From: an uncultured Lachnospira sp.
GTDB taxonomy: Bacteria > Bacillota > Clostridia > Lachnospirales > Lachnospiraceae
Length of the DNA stretch: 64,000 nucleotides
Direction of reading: 5' to 3'
Assembly: GCA_944381165.1 (NCBI GenBank)
Contig: CALWKC010000006.1
Span: 31,367-95,366 of the forward strand
Positions 5,232 through 45,756 of the stretch are shown in pieces (position 1 is the stretch's first letter; every line of letters begins with the position of its first letter). A program made the translations under genes and the position numbers. The notes beneath the pieces were generated by a model that had not been told where the DNA came from, did no database searches, and was given only the letters and a program-made list of their open reading frames with translations.

Positions 5232-5927
5232 ATGAAGCTTATTATAAAAAATCTCAAAAAGAATTTTGAGCAGAAACAGGTGCTTAAGGATATTAATTAC
5301 GAGTTTGAGCGCGGAAAAATCTACGGGCTGCTGGGCAGAAACGGAGCCGGAAAAACCACGCTGTTTAACTGTCTTAACGAGGACCTTGAAATCGACGGAG
5401 GAGAGTTCTATATTGACGACGGCGGCGTCAGAAAGCTGTGTGCAGAGGACTTGGGATATGTATTGTCGACTCCGAATGTGCCTGAATTTCTGACGGGAAG
5501 AGAATTTCTGAAGTTTTTTATTGATATAAACAGAAAAAGGATAACTGATTTAAAATCCGTGGACGAATATTTTGATTTTATGAAAATTGAAGTTGAGGAC
5601 AGAGATAAGCTGTTAAAGGACTATTCTCACGGAATGAAAAATAAAATGCAGATGCTTGTAAATATAATATCAAATCCCGATGTGCTGCTGCTTGACGAGC
5701 CTTTGACCTCATTTGACGTAGTCGTGGCGGAAGAGATGAAGCAGATGCTCAAGGAAATAAAAAATAACCATATAATAATTTTTTCTACACATATAATGGA
5801 GCTTGCTCTTGATTTGTGCGACGAGATTGTGGTTTTGAATAATGGCGTTCTCACGGAGATTGACAGAAAAGGCGTTGACAATGAACAACTGAAAGAGAAA
5901 ATTATTGAGGAATTGAAGGAGGATTAG
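5232..5927 (+). CDS. ABC transporter ATP-binding protein
   Basis: This 231 aa nucleotide-binding subunit has Walker A GRNGAGKTTLF (about residue 34), a diverged signature DYSHGMKNKM in place of LSGGQ, Walker B VLLLDEPLTSFD and the switch His in STHIMELALDLCDE. The start follows GGAAGGAG. The gene ends at a TAG embedded in GGAGGATTAGT, and the following permease begins about 145 bp later, after an inserted palindromic element. The single-domain layout and a following polytopic protein suggest an ABC-2-type exporter or membrane-remodelling transporter. Substrate unknown. Confidence 0.9.
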   Translation: MKLIIKNLKKNFEQKQVLKDINYEFERGKIYGLLGRNGAGKTTLFNCLNEDLEIDGGEFYIDDGGVRKLCAEDLGYVLSTPNVPEFLTGREFLKFFIDINRKRITDLKSVDEYFDFMKIEVEDRDKLLKDYSHGMKNKMQMLVNIISNPDVLLLDEPLTSFDVVVAEEMKQMLKEIKNNHIIIFSTHIMELALDLCDEIVVLNNGVLTEIDRKGVDNEQLKEKIIEELKED

Positions 5928-6073
5928 TATGAAAAATCACGCTGATGCGCTGATTTTTCATACCGCTGTTTGTGCAGGAGCGTCACAAACAGCGTTTATC
6001 GCAGAAGAAAAATCGCCTGCGCGAATTTTTCTTCGCGTTCCTTCGCGTAAACGCTCCGGAATGGAGGATTAGT
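5916..6073 (+). repeat. Nested-palindrome / pseudoknot leader element, copy 1
   Basis: This lies between the ABC ATPase and its permease. Hairpin A is TATGAAAAATCA (5928-5939) with TGATTTTTCATA (5951-5962). Hairpin B is CGCTGTTTGTG (5964-5974) with CACAAACAGCG (5984-5994). The loop of B contains GGAGCGT (5977-5983), complementary to ACGCTCC at 6051-6057, which gives an H-type pseudoknot with a 2-nt first loop and no second loop. Between them is hairpin C (6005-6016 with 6021-6033, one bulge). The Shine-Dalgarno GGAGG at 6063 starts 5 nt after the pseudoknot strand. Both ends carry GGAGGATTAGT, so the element sits between direct repeats of an RBS-like sequence. Pairings are read directly; the regulatory role is inferred. 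Confidence 0.8.
5929..6072 (+). CDS. Possible 47-codon leader ORF inside repeat copy 1
   Basis: An ATG at 5929 follows GGAGG (5918-5922) at 6 nt and opens 47 codons, ending at the TAG 6070-6072, one base before the TTG start of the permease. The peptide begins MKNHADALIF, contains VCAGASQ and has PSRKRSGMED at its end. A second element copy at 31132 encodes a peptide with the same MKN start, a CAGASQ core and a PSR near the end. The start codon is inside the 5' arm of hairpin A. Translation of this ORF would disrupt the pseudoknot, so it may be a leader peptide. It could also be a by-product of the repeat sequence. Confidence 0.35.
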   Translation: MKNHADALIFHTAVCAGASQTAFIAEEKSPARIFLRVPSRKRSGMED

Positions 6074-7651
6074 TTGACAGAGACATTTATAATTTCCTTT
6101 AAATTAAGAAATACATATAGGGTCAACAGTATAATTTATTCTATTAAACAGCTTCCGCTTATTAAAAAAGTGTTGTCTGACAGCCTGTATGAAAGTTCAG
6201 GGCTGAAAACCCTTGCGAATATAATCAGTATAATGACGGAAATAGTAAACACGTTCATAGGAAAATTTATATATATGGTGCTTATGGTATATATGGCGTC
6301 AATACTTTACAGCTCGGACAATGCTGATATTTTTATTCATATTTTTATTTTCCTTACCCTGTGCGGAGGGCTTTTAAACACATATATGTTCAATCCCACG
6401 AAAGATAAATATTACGCGATTATAATTATGAATATTGATGCGAAAAAATATACGCTCTCAAACTATTATTATCAGCTCATAAAGGTTTTTATCGGATTTC
6501 TGCCGTTTACGTTATTATTCGGTATATTGGCGGGGGTATCCGTATGGATTGCGCTTATTATGCCTTTGTATGTTGTTTCGGTAAAAATTATAGTAAGCAG
6601 CTACGCAATATGGGATTTTAAGAGGACAAAAAAGGCAAAAAACGAAAATGTTCCTTCAGCAGTTTTATGGACGCTTGTGGCGCTGTTTCTGCTTGCTGCC
6701 TACGTGCTTCCTCTGTTGGATATAATAATAAGACCTGCAGTTTTTGTTGTTTTGTCCGTACTTTGCGCGGCTGCTGCAATATACGGCTTCTTAAAAATAA
6801 ACAGCTTTGAAGATTACAGGAAAATGTATAAGCAGCTCCTGACACAGACAAATGTATACAGAGGTGATAAGCAGAATACTGCGGAGGCCGTGAAGAAGGC
6901 AAGCTTAAACCGCATAGAGCTGGATAAAAATTATGTGAGCAATAAATCGGGCTTTGCGTATTTTCATGAGCTTTTTGTACAGCGCCACAGAAAAATTCTC
7001 ACAAAATCCGCAAGATTTCAGGCGGCGGTTTGCCTTGTCATGCTCGCGGGGGCTCTTGCAGGAACGTTTCTGGATGCGGAATTTAAGCAGACAACAAACA
7101 GACTTTTGCTTACGTATATACCGTATTTTGTGTTTATTATGTACTGTATGAACAGAGGAACAACGGTCACTCAGGCGATGTTTATGAACTGTGACCACAG
7201 TATGCTTACATACAGAATATACAGAACTCCTAAAGTAATATTGGGAATTTTTAGGGAACGCTTAAAGACGCTTATAAAAATAAATCTGCTTCCGGCTTCG
7301 GTTATAGCGGCAGGGCTTATGCTTTTGCTGTATATATCGGGCGGAACTGACAATGTGTGGAATTATCCGGCATTGTTTATGTCGATAGAGGCGATGAGCA
7401 TATTTTTCTCAGTGCATTACCTTGTTATGTACTATCTGCTTCAGCCATACAACGCGGACACGGAGATTAAGAGCAGCACGTATAAGGTTGTACAGATATT
7501 GACATACGTTGTGAGCTATATATGTATAGAGGTAGAGCTTCCGACGGTTATATTCGGCATGGCTATGGTTTTGTTCTGTGCCGTATATTGTATTGTCTCT
7601 CTTTTTCTGGCATATAAATATGCGCCTAAGACATTCAGGATAAGAAGATAA
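6074..7651 (+). CDS. ABC transporter permease
   Basis: I place the start at TTG 6074, 6 nt after GGAGG; the frame is open further upstream, but that part runs through the palindromic repeat. The product is 525 aa, starting TETFIISFKLRNTYRVNS. It has many hydrophobic segments: a group at about residues 70-210 (for example FIYMVLMVYMASILY), two near 225-265, and a C-terminal group after residue 340. The central hydrophilic region contains the charged stretch ELFVQRHRKILTKSARFQ. It is the likely membrane partner of the ATPase at 5232. The pair is cytoplasmic-membrane located; substrate unknown. Translation is probably affected by the structured leader just upstream. Confidence 0.8.
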   Translation: MTETFIISFKLRNTYRVNSIIYSIKQLPLIKKVLSDSLYESSGLKTLANIISIMTEIVNTFIGKFIYMVLMVYMASILYSSDNADIFIHIFIFLTLCGGLLNTYMFNPTKDKYYAIIIMNIDAKKYTLSNYYYQLIKVFIGFLPFTLLFGILAGVSVWIALIMPLYVVSVKIIVSSYAIWDFKRTKKAKNENVPSAVLWTLVALFLLAAYVLPLLDIIIRPAVFVVLSVLCAAAAIYGFLKINSFEDYRKMYKQLLTQTNVYRGDKQNTAEAVKKASLNRIELDKNYVSNKSGFAYFHELFVQRHRKILTKSARFQAAVCLVMLAGALAGTFLDAEFKQTTNRLLLTYIPYFVFIMYCMNRGTTVTQAMFMNCDHSMLTYRIYRTPKVILGIFRERLKTLIKINLLPASVIAAGLMLLLYISGGTDNVWNYPALFMSIEAMSIFFSVHYLVMYYLLQPYNADTEIKSSTYKVVQILTYVVSYICIEVELPTVIFGMAMVLFCAVYCIVSLFLAYKYAPKTFRIRR

Positions 7652-16882: not shown

Positions 16883-16947
16883 CAGGTTTGTGGCTGCGCT
16901 GCCGACACAAACCTGCAATGCGCAAAGGGCAGCGCAGAATTTAGGAG
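16883..16947 (+). repeat. Pseudoknot leader element, copy 3 (short form)
   Basis: The hairpin CAGGTTTGTG (16883-16892) pairs with CACAAACCTG (16906-16915). Its loop holds CTGCGCTGCC (16894-16903), fully complementary to GGCAGCGCAG at 16928-16937. The Shine-Dalgarno AGGAG begins at 16943, 5 nt after this strand, the same spacing as in copies 1 and 2. Only the TTTGTG/CACAAA core is shared; outer stem and pseudoknot strands differ but still pair. No leader ORF with an RBS is evident here. Confidence 0.75.
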
Positions 16948-16956
16948 AGAAAAAAT

Positions 16957-18021
16957 ATGATACGCTTTGGAATTATAGGATCAGGCTGGAGGGCGATGTT
17001 TTATCTAAGGGCGGCAAAGGCGCTTCCGGAGCAGTTTGATTTGTGCATGGTTTTGTGCCGCAGAGAGGAGGAAGCGCGCAGGATAAGAGAGCAGTATGAT
17101 GTTCCGGCATGCTGTGACGAAAAGGCTATGCTGAAGGCAAATCCGGATTTTGTTGTGTCGTGCGTGAGCAAAGCCGCTATGTGCGATACGGTAATAAAGT
17201 GGCTTGGGCTTGGAGTCCCGGTACTTTCCGAGACGCCTGTCTCGCTTGAAAGGGGGAGGCTTGAACAGATATGGGAGCTTTGCAGCGGAGGTAAACTTTC
17301 CTGCACAAAGCTTCAGGTTGCGGAGCAGTATGCATATTATCCTGTACATGATGCCAGAATAAAAATTATAAAATCGGGGCTTATAGGCGAGCCGGTTTCA
17401 ATGACCTTGTCTTATATGCATGATTATCACGCCGCAAGTATTATACGCAAAATGCTTGATACAGGGCTTGAGGATGTGCATATAGCAGGAAAAACGTTTA
17501 TGATGCCGGTCACAGACACAAGGACGCGCTATGAAATCCTCACCAAAGGGGAGGTCGTCAAAAAGGAAGAGAAGCATCTTGTAATGGAGTATGAGAGTCA
17601 AAAAACAGCGTTTTATGATTTTATGTCAGATCAGTACAGGAGCGGCATACGAAACAGATTTATGAATGTTCGGGGAACGCGGGGCGAGTTAATGGAGGAT
17701 ACCTTTTATTTCCTCAGGGACGATAATCTTGCCGCATCTGCGAAAATGGATATTTACCGGGACGAGGACAGCGGCGAGGTTTTGTCGGTTAAATTTATGG
17801 GCAAAACGGTATATATTCCTCCTTTTGGAATATGCGGATTAGGTGAGGATGAGACGGCAGTCGCGAGAATGCTTGCAGGCATGAAAAAGTATGTTGACGG
17901 TGGGGATGAGGTATATCCTCTGCGGGAAGCATTGGAGGATGCCTATATTGCCGAAATGATGACGCGCGCCGCAGAAAATCCGTGGGAGGTTGTGAACTCT
18001 GAAAAGCGTCCGTGGAAATAG
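16957..18021 (+). CDS. Gfo/Idh/MocA-family oxidoreductase
   Basis: The 354 aa product has an N-terminal Rossmann fold: IRFGIIGSGWRAMFYLRAA gives GxGxxG-like GSGWRA. PDFVVSCVSKAAMCD and VPVLSETPVSLE follow, where EKP of most relatives is ETP, so the usual Lys is missing. The C-terminal alpha/beta domain contains VAEQYAYYPVHDARIKII and a long beta region. Such enzymes usually oxidise or reduce sugars or inositols with NAD(P). The loss of the Lys may mean an altered reaction. The start follows AGGAG at the end of repeat copy 3. The MGMT-like gene follows 18 bp later. Confidence 0.85.
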   Translation: MIRFGIIGSGWRAMFYLRAAKALPEQFDLCMVLCRREEEARRIREQYDVPACCDEKAMLKANPDFVVSCVSKAAMCDTVIKWLGLGVPVLSETPVSLERGRLEQIWELCSGGKLSCTKLQVAEQYAYYPVHDARIKIIKSGLIGEPVSMTLSYMHDYHAASIIRKMLDTGLEDVHIAGKTFMMPVTDTRTRYEILTKGEVVKKEEKHLVMEYESQKTAFYDFMSDQYRSGIRNRFMNVRGTRGELMEDTFYFLRDDNLAASAKMDIYRDEDSGEVLSVKFMGKTVYIPPFGICGLGEDETAVARMLAGMKKYVDGGDEVYPLREALEDAYIAEMMTRAAENPWEVVNSEKRPWK

Positions 18022-30982: not shown

Positions 30983-31121
30983 TTTGTGCGGTATTTCTTA
31001 CGGGTATACGGCTTGTGCAAAGCATATTTATTCCGGTTGTATTTTATGTCCCGTCATGCTAAACTTGAAATGCCTGAATAATATAAAAAAATTTGTTCTA
31101 CCGGGATAAATCTCTCGGAAC

Positions 31122-31279
31122 GGAGGATAGTGTGAAAAATAAGCTCGATAGCTTATTTTTCACAAGCCATGCATGGCTGGCTATTTGTGCCGGAGCGTCA
31201 CAAATAAGCCATGATGGCAGACGCAAATTTGATATTTGCGTCGCCCCGTCGCGATAAACGCTCCGGAATGGAGATTAGT
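31122..31279 (+). repeat. Nested-palindrome / pseudoknot leader element, copy 2
   Basis: Hairpin A is TGTGAAAAATAAGCT (31131-31145) with AGCTTATTTTTCACA (31150-31164), 15 bp perfect. A palindrome AGCCATGCATGGCT follows (31165-31178). Hairpin B is GGCTATTTGTG (31179-31189) with CACAAATAAGCC (31199-31210, one bulge). Its loop strand GGAGCGT (31192-31198) is complementary to ACGCTCC (31258-31264). Hairpin C is GACGCAAAT (31220-31228) with ATTTGCGTC (31234-31242). The RBS GGAG at 31270 is 5 nt after the pseudoknot strand. Compared with copy 1 (5916-6073), stem sequences differ but pairing is kept, while the pseudoknot strands and the tail CGCTCCGGAATGGA are identical. Confidence 0.8.
31132..31257 (+). 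CDS. Possible 41-codon leader ORF inside repeat copy 2
   Basis: A GTG at 31132 follows GGAGG at 5 nt and opens 41 codons to TAA 31255-31257, ending one base before the pseudoknot 3' strand. The peptide starts MKNKLDSLFF, contains AICAGASQ and ends VAPSR. The peptide from copy 1 shares MKN, D-x-L-x-F, CAGASQ and PSR. Ribosome transit would open the pseudoknot. It may be a leader peptide or merely the reading of a repeat. Confidence 0.35.
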   Translation: MKNKLDSLFFTSHAWLAICAGASQISHDGRRKFDICVAPSR

Positions 31280-31927
31280 ATGACGAAAAAGCAGCTTGCA
31301 CTTGAAGTTATAGACAGATTAAAGAAAGAATATCCAGATGCGGGATGTACGCTTGAGTATGACGACGCGTGGAAGCTTCTGGTCAGTGTAAGACTTGCTG
31401 CGCAGTGTACAGATGCGAGGGTAAATATTGTGGTTGAGGGCTTATTTGAGAAATATACTTCGGTTGCAGCGCTGGCTGAGGCAGACGTCGATGATATAGA
31501 AAGAATTGTACACCCGTGCGGGCTGGGAAGGAGCAAGGCGAGGGATATAAGCGCCTGTATGAAGATGCTGCATGAGGAATACAATGACTGTGTGCCGGAC
31601 GATTTTGACGCTCTGCTTAAGCTTCCGGGAGTGGGAAGGAAGAGCGCAAATCTGATTATGGGAGACGTGTTCGGAAAGCCGGCTATTGTCACTGATACGC
31701 ACTGTATCAGACTTTCTAACAGAATAGGGCTTGTAAAAGATATAAAAGAGCCTAAAAAGGTTGAAATGGAGCTGTGGAAAATTATTCCGCCTGAGGAGGG
31801 AAGCGATTTGTGCCACAGGCTGGTTTATCACGGAAGAGACGTCTGTACGGCACGCACAAAACCACATTGCAGCAAATGCTGCCTTTTTGATATATGCAAA
31901 AGGAACGGGGTAAAAGAGTATGATTAG
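31280..31927 (+). CDS. nth: Endonuclease III (DNA glycosylase/AP lyase)
   Basis: The start is ATG 31280 after GGAG at the end of repeat copy 2, giving 215 aa. The enzyme removes oxidised pyrimidines and cuts the abasic site. The helix-hairpin-helix LLKLPGVGRKSANLIMGD and the catalytic Asp in VTDTHCIRLSNR are present, with the Lys in the expected position (GVGRKSA). The C-terminal 4Fe-4S loop reads C-TARTKPH-C-SK-C-CLFDI-C, so the first spacing is seven residues rather than the six of the E. coli enzyme. The stop overlaps the next gene by 8 bp. Activity is expected. Confidence 0.94.
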   Translation: MTKKQLALEVIDRLKKEYPDAGCTLEYDDAWKLLVSVRLAAQCTDARVNIVVEGLFEKYTSVAALAEADVDDIERIVHPCGLGRSKARDISACMKMLHEEYNDCVPDDFDALLKLPGVGRKSANLIMGDVFGKPAIVTDTHCIRLSNRIGLVKDIKEPKKVEMELWKIIPPEEGSDLCHRLVYHGRDVCTARTKPHCSKCCLFDICKRNGVKEYD

Positions 31928-45731: not shown

Positions 45732-45756
45732 AGAGCGCTCAGGAATGGAGAACATA

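Follow-up and report, generated by a model that had tools for sequence, protein, structure and literature searches.

The window, a 64,000-nt stretch of a Lachnospira sp. contig (GenBank CALWKC010000006.1), carries at 5918–6076 a palindromic element between two Shine–Dalgarno sequences (SDs), ahead of a gene that starts with TTG. The features of this copy (copy 1), all on the forward strand, are:

5918..5922, +, left SD GGAGG (then ATTAG), corresponding to the right SD
5928..5962, +, hairpin A, with which the element begins on the left; ATG at 5929–5931 lies in the 5′ arm
5929..6072, +, leader ORF of 47 codons spanning the element; its TAG is directly ahead of the TTG start
5964..5994, +, hairpin B (P2), with loop strand GGAGCGT at 5977–5983 (from sequence and co-variation)
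6000..6037, +, hairpin C (P3), inside the third pseudoknot loop (from sequence)
6051..6057, +, 3′ pseudoknot strand ACGCTCC (from sequence and co-variation)
6058..6062, +, GGAAT, conserved; 3′ terminus of the element, or else belonging to the target rule
6063..6067, +, right SD GGAGG; start of the downstream gene, TTG, at 6074–6076

The P2 of copy 1 consists of the arms CGCTGTTTGTG (5964–5974) and CACAAACAGCG (5984–5994), 11 bp, around the loop CAGGAGCGT (5975–5983), and the strand within this loop is complementary to ACGCTCC, as the first-pass annotation had claimed. The H-type layout that it had proposed is also present (loop 1 of 2 nt, loop 2 of 0 nt and a long loop 3 with the hairpin at 6000–6037), and GGAGG indeed lies 5 nt past the knot strand, serving the TTG start, with GGAAT in between. 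The per-base conservation of GGAAT is 92–99%, save for the second G (77%), in our alignment A2, values which lean high because the anchoring pattern (with up to two mismatches) included those bases. The left flank matches the right flank over 11 nt (GGAGGATTAGT). The position of the leader ORF makes translational coupling with the TTG-start gene possible, if the ORF is used.

Three further sites in the window are related to copy 1:

31122..31126, +, left SD GGAGG of copy 2 (from sequence)
31131..31164, +, hairpin A of copy 2 (from sequence)
31179..31210, +, P2 of copy 2, with loop strand GGAGCGT at 31192–31198
31258..31264, +, 3′ pseudoknot strand ACGCTCC of copy 2, followed by GGAAT
31270..31273, +, right SD GGAG of copy 2; start ATG at 31280 of a HhH-GPD DNA repair glycosylase gene
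16883..16915, +, P2 of a type II copy, CAGGTTTGTG/CACAAACCTG (arms 16883–16892 and 16906–16915), with loop strand CTGCGCTGCC at 16894–16903
16928..16937, +, 3′ pseudoknot strand GGCAGCGCAG of the type II copy (from sequence, scan and co-variation)
16943..16947, +, SD AGGAG past the type II copy; ATG at 16957 of a GFO/IDH/MocA oxidoreductase gene
45735..45750, +, 3′-end-like sequence GCGCTCAGGAATGGAG with the element body absent, a possible relic (from pattern searches)

The second copy of the copy 1 type (type I), at 31179–31264, has P2 arms at 31179–31189 and 31199–31210 with a single bulged A. The site at 16883–16937 belongs to a second type (type II), related and compact: it shares the layout, as had been claimed for all three sites, but its knot sequence differs from that of type I and it lacks an internal hairpin. 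The common spacing of 5 nt, also claimed, holds at this site when counted to AGGAG and becomes 6 nt when counted to GGAG.

In the 2.57 Mb of the own genome, GGAGCGTCACAAA occurs 19 times against 0 for the reversed pattern, and ACGCTCCGGAATGGAG, with up to two mismatches, 55 times against 0 for the control. Set against these controls, the copies are not a chance occurrence. The search for type I gave 54 own-genome matches at E < 1e-4 among the 75 matches listed. Among those listed for type II, 20 have E ≤ 1e-8 and none of them overlaps type I, while the 35 matches of the type II model at E ≤ 1e-3 overstate this type because at least one type I copy (L284) is found among the weaker matches; the type II counts of other genomes may be likewise overstated. 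We have also scanned blindly 1911 SD-preceded starts (about 0.86 Mb of the own genome) for a stem of at least eight perfect pairs whose loop can pair, over at least 7 nt, with the 20 nt that extend into the SD. This yielded 11 sites (nine type I copies, the one at 16883, and L304, left unassigned), against 0, 0, 3, 1 and 2 when the 3′ piece was swapped from another gene; the scan is strict, since a loop search of the same stretches lists 22 type I copies. Across the family, 39 of the 299 Lachnospiraceae genomes sampled carry type I (own included), with copy numbers that are lower bounds as 13 candidates were scored per genome; within the genus 13 of 22 genomes do (again counting the own one), the range being 0 to 50 copies per genome. 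A loop-based search found at least 116 stretches with a type I element. The further copies predicted for this genome thus exist, by the dozen.

The element lies at SDs in one orientation, usually with an SD on each side. In a sample chosen by loop, 84 of 93 copies have the SD 5 nt past the knot strand, 67 of 93 have ATG at +15, and an open frame of at least 60 amino acids follows in 81 of 90 (295 of 1000 random places). Both types hold the knot at 4–6 nt from the SD.

The seven pairs of the type I knot are 94.4% paired, with changes between GC (48) and UA (14), GC (53) and AU (6), and UA (36) and AU (16); the whole type I structure is 93.4% paired, against 38–51% when slid. None of 500 shuffles matched the co-variation score of this knot; pairs with a two-sided change number 15 versus 11.8 in shuffled data (reached by 5/500), and 18 of 71 cells fail at the outermost pair. 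For type II, the duplex of a strand with its own partner has a mean energy of −14.99 kcal/mol versus −12.42 ± 0.34 for permuted partners (0/1000), and strand swaps give −14.06 within and −11.51 across genome groups. Nine type II copies showed no co-variation above shuffles, while a larger set did, and in both types the knot co-variation stems from a few lineages. The annotation was to fall if a genome search found no further copies with co-varying pairs; since there are dozens of copies and their knot strands co-vary, in both types, the computational half of this refutation failed. In type I, the probable RNA fold is a pseudoknot whose end lies 5 nt ahead of the SD.

One could read all this as purely selfish DNA, whose palindromes serve transposition, whose insertions at SDs survive since an SD remains, and whose knot has no role as RNA. 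Hairpin A would fit, as it has no RNA-type bias (11 G-U and 22 A-C in 89 hairpins) and can be lost later (it is missing in L017 and present in the orthologue L260). Moreover, two hairpin A forms, searched over 2.07 Mb of loci, gave 115 matches, 30 of which have no P2 downstream; by eye, 29 of them are the palindrome on the opposite strand and one (L067) is a copy lacking P2. The knot behaves otherwise: its one-sided departures comprise 47 G-U and 9 A-C (A2 and A3 together; 29:3 in A3 and 18:6 in A2, which was chosen several ways), a ratio that is inflated because the sample L066–L181 was picked by loop sequence, which makes loop variation invisible. The corresponding lean is not significant in P2 and P3, helices that lean to structure because A2 and A3 were fitted to them, the knot being outside the model. 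After insertion, P2, knot and 3′ end have jointly changed at 8 of 450 sites versus 48 of 662 in P3 and the rest (10 orthologous pairs, p = 2e-5); a second such test used rounded denominators and gives p = 0.001 with mean ones. Taken alone, the knot positions (5/140 diverged) are not below the downstream coding DNA (59/2200; eleven pairs), as selfish DNA would have it. In view of the G-U preference, the joint conservation and the constant distance to the SD in both types, we consider the purely selfish reading unlikely; co-variation and in-place conservation suggest a role in translation.

That role could be a translational switch, in which the SD is free when the knot is formed and the gene is shut when CUCC pairs with the SD (CUCC[GGAAU]GGAG), a balance that would be set by a factor, by leader translation or by temperature. 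The CUCC is only 5 nt from GGAG, and for the GGAG of copy 2 the predicted openness is 0.00–0.04 (closed) without the knot and 0.45–0.99 (mostly open) when the knot strands are held out. Furthermore, in A2 the copies with CTCA use GAGG as SD in 8 of 17 GGAG/GAGG cases versus 2 of 43 for the others (p = 3e-4), although seven of these eight share the loop CTGAGCGA and therefore are mostly one lineage. Barring the knot strands from other pairing raises the mean predicted openness of the SD from 0.30 to 0.44 (169 of 184 copies scored), yet only 53 of the 169 gain more than 0.3, 18 drop, and in copy 1 the openness falls; a uniform SD switch is not seen across the scored copies. The genes following the copies include one for a protein without Pfam match adjoining an ABC ATPase gene, an oxidoreductase and a DNA glycosylase gene, as well as genes that we take from their own sequences to be uvrA, tlyA and def. 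The few genes examined show no consistent pathway of the kind found downstream of riboswitches, and a shared regulon is unlikely because the named genes are unrelated and presence varies from site to site. The switch is, in our judgement, a doubtful reading.

An SD-like tetramer occurs within 16 nt upstream of the hairpin-A leader in 85 of 96 copies. In 45 rows, the leader is variously about 20 codons long, closes near the start of the downstream gene or reads on into that gene; a conserved leader peptide was rejected as its frame differs between subfamilies.

Comparison of orthologous sites between the own genome and its nearest relative (G021), drawn from 49 and 25 copies, respectively, and covering those with flanks inside the fetched stretches, found 11 of 16 occupied in both and five of 16 in one only, which implies that the repeat moves. 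At what are presumably the uvrB and uvrA genes, the empty site reads GTGGAATGGAGATAAAATGG and the occupied one GTGGAATGGAGATA-element-AATGGAGATAAAATGG. With such paired sites and varying copy numbers, the suggestion of a mobile palindromic element that targets ribosome-binding sites is borne out. Flank duplication is clear in the own genome and G021 (7.41 of 9 positions matching versus 6.11 ± 0.14 permuted), marginal in other genomes (6.07 versus 5.80 ± 0.11) and absent in type II (5.90 versus 5.77 ± 0.13). Terminal inverted repeats are lacking in 96 copies (best match of the left 25-nt end to the right reverse complement, on average 8.79/25; shuffled, 8.88), and no transposase-like gene occurs in the copies read. 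A search with two hairpin A forms found no autonomous copy in the 2.07 Mb of loci, which include about a third of the own genome; one form, searched with up to three mismatches over the whole own genome, occurs in 11 places, none autonomous (nine belong to known copies, one is a relic and one lies at a contig end).

Insertion by target-primed reverse transcription, SINE-like, was our first guess from the constant 3′ end and the many copies without hairpin A, in searches that themselves selected on the loop or the 3′ end. We dropped it, and hold it to be very improbable, as the two richest genomes (G021 being 85% complete) have no RVT_1 (PF00078) match at E ≤ 0.001, five of the six genomes with PF00078 among the 22 lack a type I copy at E ≤ 1e-6, and at least one absence of hairpin A (L017 versus L260) looks like later loss. 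A non-mobile cis-regulatory RNA family passed on vertically, with which the 11 shared sites would agree, is scarcely credible given empty sites, tandem copies and 0–50 copies inside one genus.

The explanation that we favour, at a probability of about 0.6 for the whole, is a mobile, SD-inserting repeat of two related types whose knot-forming leader would insulate the downstream gene; our name for it is an SD-seeking, non-autonomous palindromic repeat bearing an RNA pseudoknot. The repeat, of about 105–150 bp, would insert at SDs of Lachnospiraceae in one orientation, moved by an enzyme acting in trans or copied via SD microhomology. In the host-gene transcript, hairpin B and the 3′ end of the element would form an H-type pseudoknot, in type I 5 nt before the downstream SD. 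A leader ORF, possibly translated, would begin at the hairpin A start codon, served by the left SD. Insulation would be the most likely effect, though the modest mean rise in predicted SD openness and its fall in copy 1 support it weakly: the knot would occupy the element's own CUCC, otherwise free to pair with the nearby GGAG (5 nt), and close the inserted RNA as a compact unit beside a usable SD, so that the gene would stay translatable and the insertion be tolerated. A more speculative and rather improbable extension is homing by pairing, whereby the 3′ CTCC (or CTCA) would recognise the GGAG or TGAG of an SD, be it on single-stranded DNA or on nascent mRNA, and then be locked in the pseudoknot, keeping the new SD usable; since the same strand would act in both pairing and knot, one sequence would serve targeting and insertion tolerance.

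An SD-landing repeat that leaves the gene unsilenced would spread ready-made 5′ leader RNAs through gut bacterial genomes. What it does to translation could be measured gene by gene, given that sister species range from 0 to 50 type I copies and that occupied sites have empty counterparts. It also raises the question of target choice, i.e., how the element finds SD sequences.

Rfam has no match in the window at gathering scores and, at E ≤ 1 in eight loci, three matches, none overlapping a copy. We found no description of such a repeat or RNA family in a literature search largely of open-access journal papers. In H-type pseudoknot riboswitches, preQ1 among them, the pseudoknot adjoins or includes the SD; unlike these, the element is mobile and has dozens of copies, and no ligand-gene logic was seen. 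REP/REPIN palindromes with RAYT (TnpA-REP), which are short, occur in tens to hundreds of intergenic copies, are thought to be non-autonomous and are preceded by GTAG (PMC8266576), resemble it as short multi-copy palindromes, and TAG is often directly ahead of our hairpin A (by eye, often NTAG, with other letters too). They differ from the element, which is one-oriented at SDs and has a second hairpin and an RNA pseudoknot; a cognate RAYT (Y1) is absent from the own genome, where the sole PF01797 match is IS200-like with other ends, unrelated by eye, and IS200-type transposition was rejected on this ground. Like MITEs, the element is small and non-autonomous, and its flanks may be partly duplicated (PMC10969869), but it lacks terminal inverted repeats and no parental insertion sequence was seen in the loci searched; the main text of that MITE review contains none of the terms "ribosome", "Shine-Dalgarno" and "start codon" (PMC10969869). 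Rickettsia palindromic elements are likewise palindromic, of about 150 bp and found in many unrelated genes; they are described as in-frame insertions into genes (PMC10969869), whereas our copies lie at SDs. TAACTGA repeats of marine Beggiatoaceae lie, as our element does, directly upstream of start codons, and a translational role and possible mobility have been suggested for them (PMC4679880); they are heptamer direct repeats, about 10% with an SD, for which no particular RNA structure was predicted (PMC4679880), whereas the element described here has hairpins and a probable knot.

Two copies of one and the same element (type I) and a compact relative (type II) lie in the window:

5916-6076: type I element, copy 1
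16883-16937: type II element
31122-31279: type I element, copy 2

From 5′ to 3′, a type I copy reads Shine-Dalgarno (SD), hairpin A, hairpin B (P2), hairpin C (P3), ACGCTCC and GGAAT, after which the downstream gene begins with its own SD and start codon. The arms of hairpin A are GTGTGAAAAAT..ATTTTTCACAC or forms altered on both arms, e.g., TATG../..CATA or GATTG../..CAATC. The core of P2 is TTTGTG/CACAAA, and ACGCTCC is the complement of its loop; the predicted pseudoknot (“knot”) ends 5 nt upstream of the SD. The coordinates, loop lengths and 5-nt spacing described in the first-pass annotation proved correct at copies 1 and 2 when the sequence was re-read. At the third place it had named (16883), the layout is shared but the sequence differs, with a spacing of 5 nt if counted to AGGAG and 6 nt if counted to GGAG. 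The left SD and a start codon inside hairpin A define a leader ORF, which in copy 1 spans 47 codons and stops one base upstream of the TTG start.

The further copies predicted for the source genome (G000) do exist. The genome has 19 occurrences of the 13-mer from loop and stem, and 55 sites match the 3′-end 16-mer (≤2 mismatches), both reversed controls giving 0; by eye, some of the 55 have the 3′ end alone, or both ends without the middle. When the genome was searched with R1, a covariance model for P2 and P3 built from 61 sequences, own copies among them, 75 matches were listed at E ≤ 0.1; tightening the cut-off leaves 54 at E < 1e-4 and 50 at E ≤ 1e-6. The copies L012, L013, L040, L041, L044 and L187, which lack a complete hairpin A, lie downstream of promoter-like sequences (by eye). 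Also by eye, contig C31 starts (L025, G000:C31:1-128) with ~125 nt closely resembling the flank and hairpin A of copy 2 (window about 31010-31160), followed by a different gene, and the end of contig C24 falls within a copy; these are either assembly breaks at the repeat or rearrangements through it.

Co-variation in the knot was assessed on 73 distinct rows from G000 and its nearest relative searched (G021), in an alignment of type I copies chosen several ways (A2), with the knot left out of the alignment step. Over the whole structure, 93.4% of cells pair, versus 38-51% when slid. The co-variation score was equalled by no shuffle and the count of pairs changed on both sides by 5 of 500, where the changes stem from few lineages and the shuffles ignore relatedness. 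At three knot pairs both partners are changed (14, 6 and 16 sequences, respectively); the outermost knot pair is unpaired in 18 of 71. Thirteen own rows have another loop, CTGAGCGA, and mostly TCGCTCA as the 3′ strand, so the knot is preserved though both strands differ. One-sided departures in the knot are G-U rather than A-C at 18:6 in A2 and at 29:3 in a second sample (A3), inflated by its loop-based choice; the ratio is 21:10 in P2 and 50:37 in P3, neither significant, and 11:22 in hairpin A.

Over ten orthologous pairs, the changed sites number 2/200 in P2, 5/140 in the knot, 1/110 in the 3′ end, 38/502 in P3 and 10/160 in the rest; the first three together differ from the last two with p = 2e-5 (p = 0.001 when the two most diverged pairs are removed). 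Downstream coding DNA of eleven pairs has 59/2200 sites changed. The eleventh pair, kept out of the element counts, is L035 (G000) and L248 (G021), which occupy one site with a shared right half and strongly different hairpin A and P2: the left half was apparently replaced, possibly through gene conversion with another copy.

A blind scan retrieved nine type I copies and 16883. Relatives of the latter read GTTTGTG-CTGCGCTGCC-CACAAAC, then GGCAGCGCAG, AAAT and GAGG, and the knot is therefore 4 nt from GAGG. The type II model (R2) has 35 matches in G000, 32 in G021, 110 in G019, 107 in G007 and 26 in G005 (the last without a type I match), the weak tail including at least one type I copy. In 47 type II copies (two more fetched copies were left out, a part being unrecognised), the duplex of loop and own strand is at −14.99 kcal/mol versus −12.42 ± 0.34 permuted (0/1000), a preference chiefly between genome groups. 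Many of 33 copies from G019 and G007 have a hairpin A as in type I (GTGTGAAAA..TTTTCACAC) ahead of P2, and L154 combines a type II knot with hairpin A remains; because of this hairpin and the mixture in L154, both types would belong to one superfamily.

A 17-base loop pattern matched at least 116 stretches (one genome per species) and no viral contig. Most of the 80 titles listed name Lachnospiraceae or a genus of that family, or bear other Eubacteriales/Clostridium labels; the exceptions are L069 and L134 (“bacterium”), L103 and L119 (“Bacillus sp.”), L081 (Citricoccus) and L125 (Nocardia). Among the loop matches listed, 109 of 118 have 170 nt of downstream sequence, and 93 of these include the complementary strand (reversed control, 4); in the remaining 16, L069, L081, L125 and L149 resemble chance matches, the rest of the element being absent, and several have a near complement outside what the search pattern permitted. 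Among 299 genomes sampled across the family, which represent 298 genera and include the own one, 39 carry the element at E ≤ 1e-8. Within the genus, it occurs in 13 of 22 genomes (own included) at E ≤ 1e-6, the highest copy numbers being 50, 49, 25, 15, 12 and 10; the other nine, several of them 99% complete, have no type I match at that threshold.

Comparison of stretches of G000 and G021 revealed five orthologous sites occupied in one genome and empty in the other (four recovered again in a second comparison) and 11 occupied in both. The clearest one-sided site lies between genes we take to be uvrB and uvrA, where G021 has the empty site GAGTGGAATGGAGATAAAATGG and G000 has GTGGAATGGAGATA, the element, and AATGGAGATAAAATGG. 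At L253/L267 the empty site is diverged, at L261/L301 hairpin A and the left SD are absent, and L263/L305 could be a loss through recombination between flanking repeats. Tandem copies (L100, L166) share the intervening SD.

Left and right flanks were compared in 96 of 172 copies, those with a recognised hairpin A. Their longest common stretch is 9.5 versus 6.37 ± 0.37 permuted in 26 own copies, and 7.41 of 9 positions match versus 6.11 ± 0.14 in 37 copies from G000 and G021, the pairs being partly non-independent because some are orthologues (L022 and L252). Odd spellings stand on both sides in L022, L184 and L189. The resemblance is marginal in other genomes, and type II copies have none beyond permuted; target-site duplication and copying via SD microhomology are both possible origins. 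GGAAT, part of the element or of the target rule, shows 95-99% conservation per base in A2 (77% at the second base) and 92-97% in A3, values leaning high because the anchoring pattern contained these bases. Where the SD in A2 is either GGAG or GAGG, it is GAGG for 8 of 17 CTCA copies versus 2 of 43 others (p = 3e-4), which fits pairing of strand and SD, at insertion or later; 7 of the 8 have one loop, hence mostly one lineage. Terminal inverted repeats were not apparent in 96 copies (ends matching 8.79 of 25 versus 8.88 shuffled).

No reverse transcriptase match was found in G000 or G021, nor an autonomous copy, with a gene inside the element, in the sequence read. The single Y1 transposase match in G000 is IS200-like (L202, G000:C28:36307-36663), a gene with hairpin ends of its own. 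Comparison with Rfam at gathering scores gave nothing for the window, and no match at E ≤ 1 in eight loci overlaps a copy; a sub-threshold Clostridiales-1 RNA match (L009:642-800, +; 40 bits versus gathering 48) lies outside the element.

The repeat moves, sits at SDs and retains a knot whose strands co-vary; the copies read contain no transposase-like gene. This knot might keep the element's CUCC away from the SD, leaving the gene translatable. Computed SD openness agrees with such insulation for copy 2 and disagrees for copy 1, and of 169 copies, 53 are in favour and 18 opposite; given this split, insulation taken alone is less likely than not. In the literature searched we found no described repeat or RNA family of this kind, and a mobile, SD-seated repeat with an insulating knot is the best explanation as a whole, with a probability of about 0.6 that applies mainly to the identity and mobility of the repeat.
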